This document shows, one piece after another, positions 2,224 through 7,203 of a stretch of DNA of 7,320 bases (positions within the stretch are counted from its first letter, which is position 1; each line of letters begins with the position of its first letter). The position numbers and the translations under genes were made by a program. The DNA is from Xanthobacteraceae bacterium (GTDB taxonomy: Bacteria; Pseudomonadota; Alphaproteobacteria; Rhizobiales; Xanthobacteraceae): assembly GCA_030037185.1 (NCBI GenBank), contig JASHRR010000364.1, forward strand, positions 1-7,320, written 5' to 3'. Below the pieces are notes generated by a model, which saw only the letters and a list, made by a program, of their open reading frames with translations, ran no database searches and was not told the DNA's origin.

Positions 2224-3201
2224 TTACTCCACCTTGATGCCTGCGAACTTCACCACCTTGCCCAACTTATCAGTTTCGTCGGCAACGAATTTGCCGAACT
2301 CGGCCGGCGTCATGGGCATCGGAACATCACCCAGATCGGCGAACCGCGCCTTCAGCTTCGGATCGGCCAGGCCTGCGTTGATCTGCTTGTTGAGCTTATC
2401 GATGATCTCAGCCGGCGTGCCCTTCGGCGCGCCGACCCCATACCACGTAGTGATTTCGTAGCCTGGGATAAACTCGCCTGCGCTCGGAAGATCCGGCATA
2501 GCCTGCGAGCGCATCGCACTGGTTACCGCGAGTCCGCGTAACCTTCCCGCTCTGATGTAGGCGATCGAGGAGGCTAGAGAAGGAAACAGGACATCCACCT
2601 CTCCACCGAGCAAACCCGTGAGTGCAGGTCCGTTACCGCGATAGGGCACGTGGACCAAGTTGACGCCAGCCGCCATCTTAAACAGTTCCCCGGCGAGATG
2701 GCCTATGCCCCCCGTTCCGGCCGAGGCCATGTTGACTTTGCCGGGATTGGCTTTGGCGTAAGCAATAAATTCAGGGATCGTGTTGGCCGGAACGGATGGA
2801 TTGACCACTATGACAAGAGTCGTGCGAGCAATGCCCGCGACCGGCGCGATGTCGCGGATGAAATCGAAATTAAGATTGTCGTAGAGCGCGGCATTGCTTG
2901 CGTTGTTCGAACTGGCGAGAAGGAGCGTATAGCCATCAGGGGGCGCCTTGACGACGGCCTCGGTACCGATATTGTTGCCCGCACCGGGCCGGTTCTCGAC
3001 GATAAACGGCTGACCCAGACGCTCCGACAGCCATTGCCCCATCAGACGCGCGAAGACATCATTACCTCCGCCGGGGGCAACCGCAACGATCCAGCGCACC
3101 GGCCGAACCGGATATGCTTGCGCGAAAGCGGAGCGCGGTACTAACGTCAACGCGACGGCGCCTGTGGCCAAATGTAAAATTTTCCGGCGAGGAACTTTCA
3201 T
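2224..3201 (-). CDS. TctC/Bug-family periplasmic solute-binding protein with Tat-like signal peptide
   Basis: This 325-residue protein belongs to the Bug/TctC family, the extracytoplasmic receptors of tripartite tricarboxylate transporters, which bind carboxylates and related small molecules. The N-terminus MKVPRRKILHLATG is a twin-arginine signal. It is followed by a hydrophobic stretch and a likely cleavage after SAFA (residue 27), leaving mature QAYPVRPVRW. Family hallmarks are VAPGGGNDVFAR (41-52), VENRPGAGNNIGTEAV (68-83), PPDGYTLL (87-94) and VPYRGNGPALTGLLGGEVDV (185-204). The ATG at 3201 is preferred over upstream Mets because it puts the Tat motif at residues 4-8 and has GAGG 9 bases upstream (3211-3214). 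The gene is first in an apparent operon with leuC- and leuD-like genes, suggesting that the bound ligand or a derivative is their substrate. No TctA or TctB membrane subunits lie in the window; orphan Bug receptors are common in related genomes. The ligand cannot be read from the sequence. Confidence 0.93.
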   Translation of the reverse strand: MKVPRRKILHLATGAVALTLVPRSAFAQAYPVRPVRWIVAVAPGGGNDVFARLMGQWLSERLGQPFIVENRPGAGNNIGTEAVVKAPPDGYTLLLASSNNASNAALYDNLNFDFIRDIAPVAGIARTTLVIVVNPSVPANTIPEFIAYAKANPGKVNMASAGTGGIGHLAGELFKMAAGVNLVHVPYRGNGPALTGLLGGEVDVLFPSLASSIAYIRAGRLRGLAVTSAMRSQAMPDLPSAGEFIPGYEITTWYGVGAPKGTPAEIIDKLNKQINAGLADPKLKARFADLGDVPMPMTPAEFGKFVADETDKLGKVVKFAGIKVE

Positions 3202-3684
3202 GGCGTGCCGCCTCATCGCATCAAAGCTATCGCAATTGCCGTTCCTCAAAAAGGGGCCACATGAGCCGATCTTGACCAGGCAGAGCAGTGGGCGCGAGTG
3301 ATTGTTTGATTCCGACACGCCCTCAGCCGCTCAGGCGTCTTTGACGGCGCCAGGATGCGCGCCCGGGCAAGCGCCTGGATGCCATGACGCGTGACGATCT
3401 GCCGGCCGAGCTTGCGCCACTCGGGTAGCGGTTGCGGATTTGCGTGGCGAGCTTACCTCGCTGCGGGCGCAGCTTGAAGCGGGCTGCCACAGTTGCATCG
3501 AAGTCTGTCGTCTACGGGCCCGCGTTGTCAAAACAACGACGATGCTTTCTGGTTGCCGATTCGGTGCGGCATGGCCGGAAACTCTCCGCTTGCGGAGGTC
3601 GCCGGCGCTTGCGATCCTTTGGGCCGAGATCGATCCGCAGCGCCGTTCGTCCTTCCTGCGCACCGTTCGGTTGAAACAGAGTGC

Positions 3685-3722: not shown

Positions 3723-3805
3723 TCGCGACATTTCAAGTCAGCGTATTTCACGGCGGGCGCAGATGCGATTTGAAGGCTGGATCAAAATCTATGGGTTTGT
3801 CCAGC

Positions 3806-3810
3806 GGAGA
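3806..3810 (+). promoter_or_regulatory. Ribosome-binding site deciding the radical SAM start
   Basis: GGAGA at 3806-3810 is the only good Shine-Dalgarno sequence near the possible starts. GGAG sits 5 bases before the ATG at 3815 and 8 bases before the ATG at 3818. It lies downstream of the earlier in-frame candidates TTG 3770 and ATG 3791, which have no comparable site. Confidence 0.6.
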
Positions 3811-3817
3811 CGTGATG

Positions 3818-5254
3818 ATGCTGCACGAATCCCGGCCTTTTGAACGCAAGGCGGCACCTTATATCTTCCATGGCCAGACGGTGAGCCTGTGCGAGACCTG
3901 CCTCGAGCCGACGCCGGCAAAGATCATCATTCAGGACGGCGGCGTCTGGTATCTGAAACGCTGCTTTATTCATGGCCTCCAGAAGACGCTGATCAGCGAC
4001 GACCTCGAGTATTGGCGGCAGCAGAAACTCTGGATCAAGCCGGGCGACCGGCCACTGACCGCGCAGACGCACACCGAGGTCGGCTGCCCGTTCGATTGCG
4101 GTCTGTGCCCCGATCATGAGCAACATAGCTGTCTGGCGATCATCGAGATCAACCAGGCATGCAATCTTGCCTGTCCGGTCTGCTTCGCCGATGCTTCAGA
4201 CGCTGATGGCAGCCACCGGCCCCTTGCCGAGATCGAGTTCATGCTCGATGCGCTCGTGGCAAGCGAAGGCGAGCCTGATCTCGTTCAATTGTCCGGCGGC
4301 GAGCCGACCATCCATCCCGATTTTTTCGCGATCCTTGGCGCAGTCAAGCGGCGCCCGATCCGGCACGTCATGATCAACACCAATGGTGTTCGAATCGCCC
4401 AGGATCGCGACTTCGTCGCCCGCCTGGCCAGCTATACGCCGCGTCTCGAAGTCTATCTGCAGTTCGACTCGATGAACGACGAGGCTCTGGTCGATCTGCG
4501 CGGCGCGCGGCTGTCGCGCATCCGCCGCCGGGCGCTGGAAGCCCTGGAGGCCGCCGGGCTCTCGACCACCCTGGTCGTGGTCGTCAAGCGCGGGGTCAAT
4601 GACGGCGAGGTAGCCGAGATCGTCACGGAGGCGCTGCGCTGGTCGTGCGTACGCGGCGTTACTTTCCAGCCGGTGCAGGATGCCGGGCGCAACGCGGGAT
4701 TCGATGCCAATGTTCATCGGGTGCTGCTCACCCAGATTCGGCGCGAGGTTGCAAGATCCGGTGTGTTCGGGCTGGAGGACATGATCCCGCTGCCCTGCAA
4801 CCCCGACCAGATCTGCATTGGCTATGGCATTCGCAACGGACCGCGTGTCACGCCCATCACCTCGCTGTTGCCCCGCGAGGTGATTTTGAACGGGCCGAAC
4901 ACGATCAGCTACGAATCCTATCCCGAACTGCGCGCAAAGATTCTCGATTTGCTCTCGCTCGCGACTGCCCAGGCCAATACCGAGGAGAAGCTGGCCGCGC
5001 TGCTCTGCTGCCTGCCGCAAGCGATGGTACCCGAAACTCTGTCCTATGCGAACAGCTTTCGGGTGGTGATCCTGCAATTCCTTGATCGCTACAATTTCGA
5101 TCTTGGCACGGTGAAGCGCAGCTGCGTGCATTTTGTGACCGGCGACGGACGCGTCATCCCGTTCGATACCTATAACAGCTTCTATCGCGATGGCGCGGAG
5201 GGGGCAGGCGTACTCGCGCGCCATCGCGCTCTTGCCGTGGCGGGCCGGCGATGA
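3818..5254 (+). CDS. Radical SAM enzyme of the MJ0619/Tes (tetraether synthase-related) group, two CX3CX2C motifs
   Basis: This 478-residue protein has the canonical radical SAM cluster motif CNLACPVC (Cys115, 119, 122), then the SAM-binding SGGEP (159-163) and INTNG (186-190). Before it lies a second CX3CX2C, CPFDCGLC (Cys90, 94, 97), followed by PDHEQHSC (Cys105). An N-terminal Cys set, CETC (25-28) and RCFIHG (Cys49), could bind another metal. The C-terminal signature CVHFVTGDGRVIPFDTYN (436-453) completes the group's pattern. In this group MJ0619 is linked to pterin methylation, and archaeal Tes and GrsA/B build C-C bonds or rings in membrane ether lipids; bacterial members are mostly uncharacterised. 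The likely chemistry is 5'-deoxyadenosyl-radical attack on an unactivated carbon; the substrate is unknown. The start at 3818 (or 3815) is chosen from GGAGA at 3806-3810; TTG 3770 and ATG 3791 would add a non-conserved tail. The stop overlaps a tiny hydrophobic ORF by ATGA. I am confident of the family, not of the function. Confidence 0.93.
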   Translation: MLHESRPFERKAAPYIFHGQTVSLCETCLEPTPAKIIIQDGGVWYLKRCFIHGLQKTLISDDLEYWRQQKLWIKPGDRPLTAQTHTEVGCPFDCGLCPDHEQHSCLAIIEINQACNLACPVCFADASDADGSHRPLAEIEFMLDALVASEGEPDLVQLSGGEPTIHPDFFAILGAVKRRPIRHVMINTNGVRIAQDRDFVARLASYTPRLEVYLQFDSMNDEALVDLRGARLSRIRRRALEALEAAGLSTTLVVVVKRGVNDGEVAEIVTEALRWSCVRGVTFQPVQDAGRNAGFDANVHRVLLTQIRREVARSGVFGLEDMIPLPCNPDQICIGYGIRNGPRVTPITSLLPREVILNGPNTISYESYPELRAKILDLLSLATAQANTEEKLAALLCCLPQAMVPETLSYANSFRVVILQFLDRYNFDLGTVKRSCVHFVTGDGRVIPFDTYNSFYRDGAEGAGVLARHRALAVAGRR

Positions 5255-5346
5255 GGAAGCTGCTGGGAGACATCCTGTTCGCCGTCGGCATTGTTGTCGC
5301 TGGCGCAAGCGGTCTGTGTTCGCTCGCCGTCCGGTGGGGCGAATGA
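5251..5346 (+). CDS. Small hydrophobic ORF translationally coupled to the radical SAM gene (probably frameshifted)
   Basis: The ATG at 5251 overlaps the radical SAM stop as ATGA, the usual geometry for translational coupling. The 31-residue product begins MRKLLGDILFAVGIVVAG, continues ASGLCSLAVRWGE and stops at 5344-5346. It has a positive N-terminus followed by one hydrophobic segment (about residues 8-27) and reads like the first helix of an inner-membrane protein with its N-terminus in the cytoplasm. Just before the stop lies a GGGG run (5336-5339). One frame over, the sequence continues as a second hydrophobic segment (listed separately), so the intact gene may have encoded a two-helix protein. 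It is too short to recognise by family. The coupling and composition argue that it is real. It could also be functional as a 31-residue single-helix peptide. Confidence 0.5.
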   Translation: MRKLLGDILFAVGIVVAGASGLCSLAVRWGE

Positions 5347-5442
5347 CGGCGTGGTGTCAACCGCCGTCACGCTGGGAGGAAGCCTGTCGGTGACAGGATC
5401 GGTCCTGATTTTCGCGGGCCACGCTCCGTCGATAGGCGCCGA
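5330..5442 (+). pseudogene. Out-of-frame second helix of the small membrane protein
   Basis: In the frame one base ahead of the 5251 ORF, the sequence reads SGGANDGVVSTAV, then TLGGSLSVTGSVLIFAG and HAPSIGAE. This is a membrane-helix-like segment with no start codon or ribosome-binding site of its own near the helix. Removing one G from the GGGG run at 5336-5339 would join it to the upstream 31-residue ORF, as ...CSLAVRWANDGVVSTAV..., and give a two-helix protein. The frame stays open to about 5629, but past roughly 5440 the composition no longer looks like a membrane protein, so the true end is unclear. This is an inference from hydrophobicity and frame geometry, not from a recognised homologue. 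Confidence 0.35.
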
Positions 5443-5644: not shown

Positions 5645-7189
5645 TCAATCCATGGCATGAGCTTCGCGCTTAGCGAGCTGCTGCACCATTCGTGACGGGC
5701 CGACGAACACCACCAGCGGCATCGCGATGACCGACAGAACCAGCAGCATCTTGTAGTCGTTGGCGTAGGCGATGATCGAGGCTTGCTGGGTCACCACCAG
5801 GTCGAGCAGGGCCCTGCCGGCATCAGTCGCCATGTTGAGCGTGGGGGCGATGTCCGGCATTCTCAAAGCATCGTTGAACGGCGTGACGCTTTCGACGATG
5901 CGGGCGTGCATCACCGTCGTGGTGTTGGTCAGCTCCGCGATCATCACCGAAATCCCGATCGAGGAGAAGATGTTGCGGATCAGCGTGAGCATCGCGGTGC
6001 CCTCGGTACGAAGCTCGTTGCGGAGAGTGAGGAACGCGATAGTGCTGAGCGGCACGAATAGCATGCCGATGCCGAACCCTTGGACCACGCTTGTCACCGC
6101 GATCGTTGTGCCGGAAGTCTGCTCGGTGAACAGCTCCATCTGATAGAGGGTGCCGGCCATCAGGATGAGGCCGATCAGCAGTAGCCAGCGCGCTTCGATG
6201 AAGCGCAGCAGACGGCTGATCACCATCATGCTCAACAGCGTGCCGATGCCGCGGGTGCCGAGCAGCCAACCCGCGGTCGTCACCGGGTAGCCAATGTTGT
6301 TCTGCATGAAAGGCGAGACCAGCGCCATGGTGCCGAACAGCGCCACGCCGATGAAGGCCATGAACACAAAGCCGGTCACGAAATTGCGGTCGCGGAAGAC
6401 TTCAAAGCGCACGAAGGGATTATCGGTCGTCAGGGAGTGGGCGAAGAAGAAATAGAAGCCGACGATCGATATCACGAATTCGGATACGATCTCGGCCGAG
6501 GAGAACCAGCCAACCTGCTCGCCGCGATCGAGCATGATTTGCAAGGCCCCGATTCCCGTCGCCAGCGCCAGGAACCCGAACCAATCGAAGCGCCGGCTAT
6601 TCTCTGTCGGAGAAGCGTCCATGAAAATCACGAGGCCGATGACGGTAACGATGCCGATCGGCAAATTGATGAGAAAGACCCAGTGCCAGCTGTATTGGTC
6701 GGTCAGCCATCCGCCGAGTGTCGGACCCATGATGGGGCCGAGCATCACGCCGATGCCCCAGATCGCCATGGCAGAGCCACGCTCGGCGAGTGTGTAGGCG
6801 TCGAGCAGCACGGCCTGCGACAGCGGCACCAGTGCGGCGCCGAACGAGCCTTGCAGCGCACGGTAAAGGACCATCTGTTCGATGTTCTGCGCCGAAGCGC
6901 ACAGTACCGACGCGACCGTAAAGCCGGCGACGCAGACGATGAAGAGCCTCTTGCGACCGAACCGCTCGGCGACCCAGCCGATTGGCGAAGTCATGATGGC
7001 GGCGGCGACGATATAGGAAGTGAGCACCCAGTTGATCTGGTCAAGAGAAGCCGACAGGCTGCCCTGCATATAAGGCAGCGCCACATTGGCGATGGTCGAG
7101 TCGAGTGCCTGCATGATGGTTGCCGTCATGGCGCAGACGGTAAGCATCGAGCGGTGCATGCCTGGAGAAAGAGGCGCGGCGGCGGTCAC
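5645..7189 (-). CDS. emrB: DHA2-family (EmrB/QacA-type) MFS multidrug efflux permease
   Basis: This 514-residue inner-membrane protein has the length and pattern of the 14-helix DHA2 drug:H+ antiporters (E. coli EmrB is 512). Conserved marks are ALDSTIANVALPYMQGSL (28-45, motif D1), GWVAERFGRKRLF (71-83, motif A) and IWGIGVMLGPIMGPTLGGWL (143-162, the antiporter motif C region). The long polar loop around 420-468 before the last helix is also seen in EmrB-like proteins. It would export hydrophobic compounds together with an EmrA-type adaptor and an outer-membrane channel. The start is uncertain because no ATG lies near the expected N-terminus. GTG at 7189 has GAG 7 bases upstream and gives MTAAAPLSPGMHRSM; TTG at 7201 would add four residues and has no good site; ATG at 7159 would remove ten. 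The EmrA-like stop is 14 bases upstream, so the two form an operon. The exact drug or metabolite is unknown. Confidence 0.93.
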   Translation of the reverse strand: MTAAAPLSPGMHRSMLTVCAMTATIMQALDSTIANVALPYMQGSLSASLDQINWVLTSYIVAAAIMTSPIGWVAERFGRKRLFIVCVAGFTVASVLCASAQNIEQMVLYRALQGSFGAALVPLSQAVLLDAYTLAERGSAMAIWGIGVMLGPIMGPTLGGWLTDQYSWHWVFLINLPIGIVTVIGLVIFMDASPTENSRRFDWFGFLALATGIGALQIMLDRGEQVGWFSSAEIVSEFVISIVGFYFFFAHSLTTDNPFVRFEVFRDRNFVTGFVFMAFIGVALFGTMALVSPFMQNNIGYPVTTAGWLLGTRGIGTLLSMMVISRLLRFIEARWLLLIGLILMAGTLYQMELFTEQTSGTTIAVTSVVQGFGIGMLFVPLSTIAFLTLRNELRTEGTAMLTLIRNIFSSIGISVMIAELTNTTTVMHARIVESVTPFNDALRMPDIAPTLNMATDAGRALLDLVVTQQASIIAYANDYKMLLVLSVIAMPLVVFVGPSRMVQQLAKREAHAMD

Positions 7190-7203
7190 GGCGTTTCTCA
7201 AGC

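Follow-up and report, generated by a model that had tools for sequence, protein, structure and literature searches.

A Tes-like radical SAM protein of bacteria, encoded with Lgt-like and small cysteine-containing membrane proteins, as a candidate component of a lipid-modifying module

Background

On what does a bacterial relative of the archaeal enzyme Tes act, and with which partners? The question is raised by a gene in the window, by which we mean the whole stretch of DNA analysed here (7,320 nucleotides of a contig assigned to a Xanthobacteraceae bacterium), the product of which resembles Tes, also known as GDGT-MAS and MJ0619. The biphytanyl chain of GDGT is formed by the product of mj0619, which abstracts hydrogen from a lipid tail and passes through an intermediate bond between carbon and a cluster sulfur (PMC9433317). 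The earlier note on this DNA had listed MJ0619, as a pterin-methylating protein, and the tetraether enzyme as two things; according to the same study, they are one protein. Homologs of Tes in bacteria are numerous: one survey counted 456, Proteobacteria included (PMC8941075), and another study, which calls their function unconfirmed, places them in Planctomycetota, Chloroflexota and other groups (PMC11868695). In the open-licence literature, we found no report of the unit described below, which combines a Tes-like gene with an Lgt-like gene and genes for small proteins.

The radical SAM protein and its relation to Tes and TrsS

The gene and the motifs of its N-terminal part are the following (numbering by the 487-residue protein unless the 478-residue form is named).

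3791..5254, + strand: gene for the Tes-like radical SAM protein, 487 aa plus stop
3890..3973, + strand: rubredoxin-type motif C-X2-C-X20-C-X2-H, residues 34-61 of 487
4085..4108, + strand: upstream CX3CX2C motif (C99, C103, C106 of 487; C90-P-F-D-C94-G-L-C97 of 478)
4160..4183, + strand: radical SAM motif CX3CX2C (C124, C128, C131 of 487; C115-N-L-A-C119-P-V-C122 of 478)

All the motifs named in the earlier note lie in the + strand frame that ends at 5254. The start had been placed at 3818, yielding 478 aa, but ATG 3791 is probably the right one, because an aligned Met is present in 73 of 74 rows, that of the window among them, and the database protein P0001, 100% identical to the window protein, is 487 aa long. 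In the 478-residue numbering, the first motif group reads C25-E-T-C28 and R-C49-F-I-H52-G, C90 and C115 are 25 residues apart, and CVHFVTGDGRVIPFDTYN is found near the C-terminus. In a 47-row alignment that includes the window, the nine cysteines of the three motifs, and likewise the His of the first motif, show no variation. From the rows first chosen for alignment A3, the loci L035, L049, L051, L056, L062 and L076 were left out.

The protein exceeds the Pfam cut-offs of both the HMPTM-type zinc ribbon (PF23545, 53 bits, cut-off 27) and the radical SAM superfamily (PF04055, 78.2 bits, cut-off 29.5), and is homologous over nearly its full length to the solved GDGT-MAS (PDB 7TOL, 7TOM), with which it shares the overall fold, an E value of 1.6e-56 and 27% identity within the aligned part. 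Compared with the metal ligands of GDGT-MAS (PMC9433317), the first motif has the same spacing as C9-X2-C12-X20-C33-X2-H36, and C99, C103 and C106 correspond to C73, C77 and C80, which are ligands of the N-terminal cluster. Judged from these comparisons, the motif set and the homology are far beyond chance, and the original placement with MJ0619/Tes is borne out by sequence and fold.

The profiles draw a finer line. The window protein scores 251.9 bits against the Tes equivalog NF045702, below the cut-off of 450. Its best NCBIfam match, covering nearly the whole length, is the TrsS radical SAM (seleno)protein NF045646, at 287.2 bits against a cut-off of 490 that is reached in none of the 299 Pseudomonadota genomes and none of the 246 genomes of a second phylum (the group of the genome behind locus L030, titled Candidatus Kuenenia). 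By these cut-offs, the protein is neither a Tes nor a TrsS equivalog. It further differs from Tes in being bacterial and in having relatives that are accompanied by an Lgt-like partner.

The clearest departure from Tes lies in the C-terminal part.

4796..5170, + strand: C-terminal region with C336, C406, C407 and C445, in which S444 and D459 replace two Tes cysteines

In the alignment with GDGT-MAS, S444 and D459 occupy the positions of Tes C455 and C470, so that the Tes C-terminal pattern CC-x-H ... PFC-x-YN gives way to one with Ser and Asp. L428 stands at Tes Met439 and F448 at Tes Tyr459, changes that say little because both residues are dispensable in GDGT-MAS mutants (PMC9433317). Among 54 compared rows from several phyla (a chosen subset of related sequences that omits L110 and includes near-copies such as L055/L081 and L028/L133), the two cysteine positions co-vary: S/T/A goes with D/E in 42 rows and Cys with Cys in 12, with no mixed case. 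The C406-C407 pair is present in 39 of the 42 S/T/A plus D/E rows vs 3 of the 12 Cys plus Cys rows. This pattern suggests that a different set of cysteines holds the C-terminal cluster. The resemblance to MJ0619 is therefore incomplete: it extends to the rubredoxin-type, N-terminal and radical SAM motifs and stops short of the C-terminal cysteine set, which is different. In two actinobacterial loci with an Lgt-like neighbor (L091, L092), it is the N-terminal cluster cysteines that are missing.

An Lgt-like gene as the usual neighbor

In the relatives, a membrane protein of ~240 aa is encoded upstream of the radical SAM gene and matches PF01790 at 61.7 bits, above the cut-off of 24.9. Among the matches listed (the protein matches being the best 120 of 7999 scored), 76 of the 79 loci have such a divergent homolog of Lgt upstream; Lgt itself transfers the diacylglyceryl moiety of phosphatidylglycerol (PMC4728403). 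In the other three loci, L068, L070 and L073, the contig end is no more than seven bases from the match, so that their upstream regions are invisible. The 76 include L064, where ~1.4 kb separates the Lgt-like gene, with its start 2.1 kb upstream, from the radical SAM gene; in the 11 loci inspected, the stop of the Lgt-like gene falls anywhere from a few bases before the radical SAM frame to well inside it.

The Lgt-like protein is distinct from the housekeeping Lgt, since each of 12 genomes examined (12/12) encodes a separate canonical Lgt scoring 235-270 bits vs 52-64 for the Lgt-like copy; against the Lgt equivalog, the Lgt-like partner scores 29.3 bits, below the cut-off of 334. In our alignment, the residues that correspond to R143 and R239 of Lgt are kept in the Lgt-like proteins, which, unlike Lgt, have no counterpart of His103 (the HGGL motif) and have Cys at the position of N146. 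His103 is essential in the Escherichia coli enzyme (PMC4728403). Given the loss of His103 and the Cys at N146, we are unsure whether the Lgt-like proteins would transfer diacylglyceryl groups.

The linkage holds from the genome side as well. The radical SAM protein occurs in 9 of the 299 Pseudomonadota genomes (E up to 1e-15, 50-79% identity), one of which, the centre genome G001, was chosen because it carries the gene. The same 9 are picked by the TrsS profile, below its cut-off, and by the Lgt-like profile at 122-392 bits, and in all 9 the two genes are within 0.8 kb of each other, in one case (L088) separated by another gene. Eight more genomes match the Lgt-like profile at 58 bits or less, presumably through canonical Lgt.

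In the second phylum, the radical SAM family is found in 47 of the 246 genomes (E up to 1e-30). An Lgt-like gene adjoins it in 22 of the 30 loci fetched, upstream in 15 and downstream in 7; the 22 include L030/L133, which looks like a mis-binned sphingomonad contig. At L107 (seen in L134), the Lgt-like gene is ~3.5 kb downstream, and in the wider stretches of 7 of the 30 loci none was seen; L115, L122 and L130 lie near contig ends. Six of ten plasmid records were examined: those of Persicobacter, Nonomuraea and Mycobacterium carry the pair, and in the Mycolicibacterium, Salinirubellus and Haloarcula records a methyltransferase gene is found instead. The radical SAM gene and the Lgt-like gene thus form a unit that is conserved in several phyla, in either gene order.

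In a 54-row tree with open forks and some long branches (ORFs >700 aa were trimmed to the last 560 residues), the window protein falls within a 42-row clade (100/99), 37 rows of which are Lgt-associated; the other five are the window, L115, L122 and the sister pair L120 and L130.

Several features of individual loci were seen along the way. In three contigs, L026, L028 and L030, which bear the titles Planctomycetaceae, Planctomyces and Candidatus Kuenenia, the operon resembles that of sphingomonads at 77% identity; these contigs are possibly mis-binned. At 4835-5653 of L147 (= L088), a gene for a Sel1-repeat protein, lipoprotein-like at its N-terminus, stands between the Lgt-like gene and the radical SAM gene. 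A DUF547 protein gene stands beside members that have no Lgt-like neighbor, in L120 (wider stretch L137), from a bacterial genome, and in two haloarchaeal plasmids, L093 and L094, the latter two with a peroxiredoxin-type gene and a methyltransferase gene as well.

Small two-helix proteins

Beyond the radical SAM gene, most of the loci encode small proteins of two predicted helices. An iterated profile run on both strands found them, among the loci listed, in 74 of the 77 with enough flank (the short-flanked L078 and L079 being omitted), and gave no match in L053, L064 and L065 despite sufficient flank. There are 101 copies, with two to four in each of 22 loci, and all 101 are downstream on the radical SAM strand, 6 to 1079 bases past the match. 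An xGxC motif near the start is present in 100 of the 101, a conservation partly built in because the profile seeds were chosen by a Cys-containing pattern. Two representatives matched no Pfam or NCBIfam family, and most of the relatives that carry a name among the database matches listed are called 'hypothetical protein'.

Of 39 loci that are more distant, 15 have a small two-helix ORF near the gene on the same strand and 3 have one on the opposite strand; when a hydrophobic GxC is required, the counts are 6 vs 1. Four loci of the second phylum (L114, L123, L124, L127) encode another small membrane protein downstream, with Cys near the end of the last helix, and in L124 and L127 this second type occurs in tandem copies.

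The window copy and its surroundings

In the window itself, the unit is broken. The features around the radical SAM gene are as follows.

88-705 (the part tested), - strand: LeuD
705-2189, - strand: LeuC
2224-3213 (the part tested), - strand: TctC-type binding protein
3775..3843, + strand: apparent remnant of an Lgt-like gene, ~22 codons plus stop, recognized by eye from a short similarity to Lgt-like tails
5251..5346, + strand: small membrane protein gene, 31 codons, with a premature stop; first helix with SGLCS kept
5351..5428, + strand: stretch similar to the small protein's second helix, in a different frame, recognized by eye
5645-7201, - strand: EmrB-type efflux protein

The Lgt-like remnant reaches its stop 52 bases into the radical SAM gene, an arrangement similar to that of L001, and no other part of an Lgt-like gene was found within the 7320-base window. 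The small gene begins at 5251, in an ATGA overlap with the radical SAM stop. The affinities of the parts are mixed: among the few named records, LeuC is nearest to Xanthobacteraceae (86%) and Rhodospirillales (82%), and the radical SAM protein groups with sphingomonads, both among the database matches listed and in the tree. The segment 88-3213, with leuC/leuD and the TctC-type receptor gene, suggests a host unlike sphingomonads.

It is possible, although we would hold it somewhat doubtful, that this particular copy is what remains of an operon gained by lateral transfer, either orphaned or in decay. The truncated partners and the differing affinities of LeuC and the radical SAM protein point that way, as does the end branch of the window protein in the tree, 0.19 vs ~0.10 for L002 and L075. 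On the other side, the reading frame and motif cysteines are intact, and comparison with six relatives gives dN of 0.09-0.14 and dS of 0.9-1.6, values that for the most part tell of older history; moreover, the partners may be elsewhere in the genome, or the contig may be chimeric. Both the broken unit and the mixed affinities would be explained either by lateral transfer followed by loss or by a chimeric contig, and the window copy may act alone, act with partners encoded elsewhere, or be a relic.

A possible role in lipid modification and its rivals

Tes and Lgt are both glycerolipid enzymes, and a conserved pair of Tes-like and Lgt-like enzymes would most simply work on the same glycerolipid. 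We therefore see about an even chance that the window protein serves as the radical SAM enzyme of a bacterial module for membrane-lipid modification, to which the Lgt-like and small Cys proteins would also belong. In such a module, the Lgt-like protein would bind or transfer the diacylglyceryl group of a glycerophospholipid, and the radical SAM enzyme would take hydrogen from an acyl chain, either of the same lipid or of what the Lgt-like protein produces, and form a new bond at this site, by analogy with Tes on archaeal lipids. For the module speak the homology to GDGT-MAS and its fold and the Lgt-like linkage in 76 of the 79 loci listed, in 9 of 9 genomes and in 22 of 30 second-phylum loci. 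Against it count the missing His103 and the Cys at N146 of the Lgt-like proteins, along with the 7 of 30 second-phylum loci and 3 of 6 plasmid records that have no pair, the window without its partner, and the altered Tes-associated C-terminal cysteine pattern. The earlier note had left the choice among lipid, hopanoid and pterin open; with an Lgt-like protein and small membrane proteins as usual partners, we infer that a glycerolipid or lipopeptide is a likelier substrate than a pterin or hopanoid.

The other readings differ from this one mainly in the substrate. The small two-helix protein could itself be the substrate, its Cys lipidated by the Lgt-like enzyme and the resulting lipopeptide, or the peptide, modified by the radical SAM protein. 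We consider this unlikely, even though it would account for the presence of the small genes in 74 of 77 loci listed (22 with two to four copies), the constant downstream, same-strand position of all 101, the xGxC of 100 of the 101, the placement of the Cys ~23 residues from the start in sphingomonads, like a lipoprotein signal, and the likeness of tandem small genes beside an enzyme to precursor peptides; the motif is not a standard lipobox, the segment stays hydrophobic past the Cys, the Cys conservation is partly built in by the profile seeds, and membrane anchors or subunits would fit equally well. A more specific scheme, in which the Lgt-like enzyme would place a diacylglyceryl group on the xGxC Cys and the Tes-fold enzyme, its C-terminal cluster rewired, would then join or thiolate the acyl chains to give membrane lipopeptides of a new class, with peptide-anchored cross-linked or membrane-spanning lipids, in mesophilic bacteria, seems to us very unlikely.

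A special case of the lipid module, a bacterial membrane-spanning-lipid synthase that couples the ends of fatty acids, strikes us as quite unlikely. Neither sphingomonads nor Caulobacter are known to us to make membrane-spanning lipids, two of the Tes C-terminal cysteines are replaced, and the Lgt-like partner would be left unexplained; moreover, the activity of bacterial homologs is called unconfirmed in PMC11868695. Yet the fold is that of Tes, such a role has been proposed for bacterial Tes homologs (PMC8941075), and phosphatidic acid was bound by GDGT-MAS that had been produced in E. coli (PMC9433317). Mss, the bacterial membrane-spanning lipid synthase, has likewise been proposed to couple acyl chains by a radical route and has been likened in architecture to Tes (PMC13274423). 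Mss nevertheless seems to stand outside the window protein's family, as judged indirectly through a Thermotoga maritima control genome (a species with reported membrane-spanning lipids) that has no PF23545 or NF045646 match. Action on a pterin or another soluble molecule, which the old HMPTM name would imply, is highly improbable: it is backed by the name of the Pfam zinc ribbon and by the database naming of P0001 and P0051 as 7,8-dihydro-6-hydroxymethylpterin dimethyltransferase, but the namesake MJ0619 has been shown to be a lipid enzyme (PMC9433317) and the partners here are membrane proteins.

Implications

Bacterial Tes homologs serve to infer the makers of membrane-spanning lipids that are used as climate proxies. 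The partner gene, linked in both directions, and the C-terminal cysteine change suggest that many of these homologs may not be tetraether synthases. For the lipid-modifying module, the gene neighborhood translates into a concrete pathway that can be tested in culturable strains of Sphingomonas, Novosphingobium and Caulobacter and, should the small Cys proteins prove to be substrates, they would represent a new kind of lipidated peptide.
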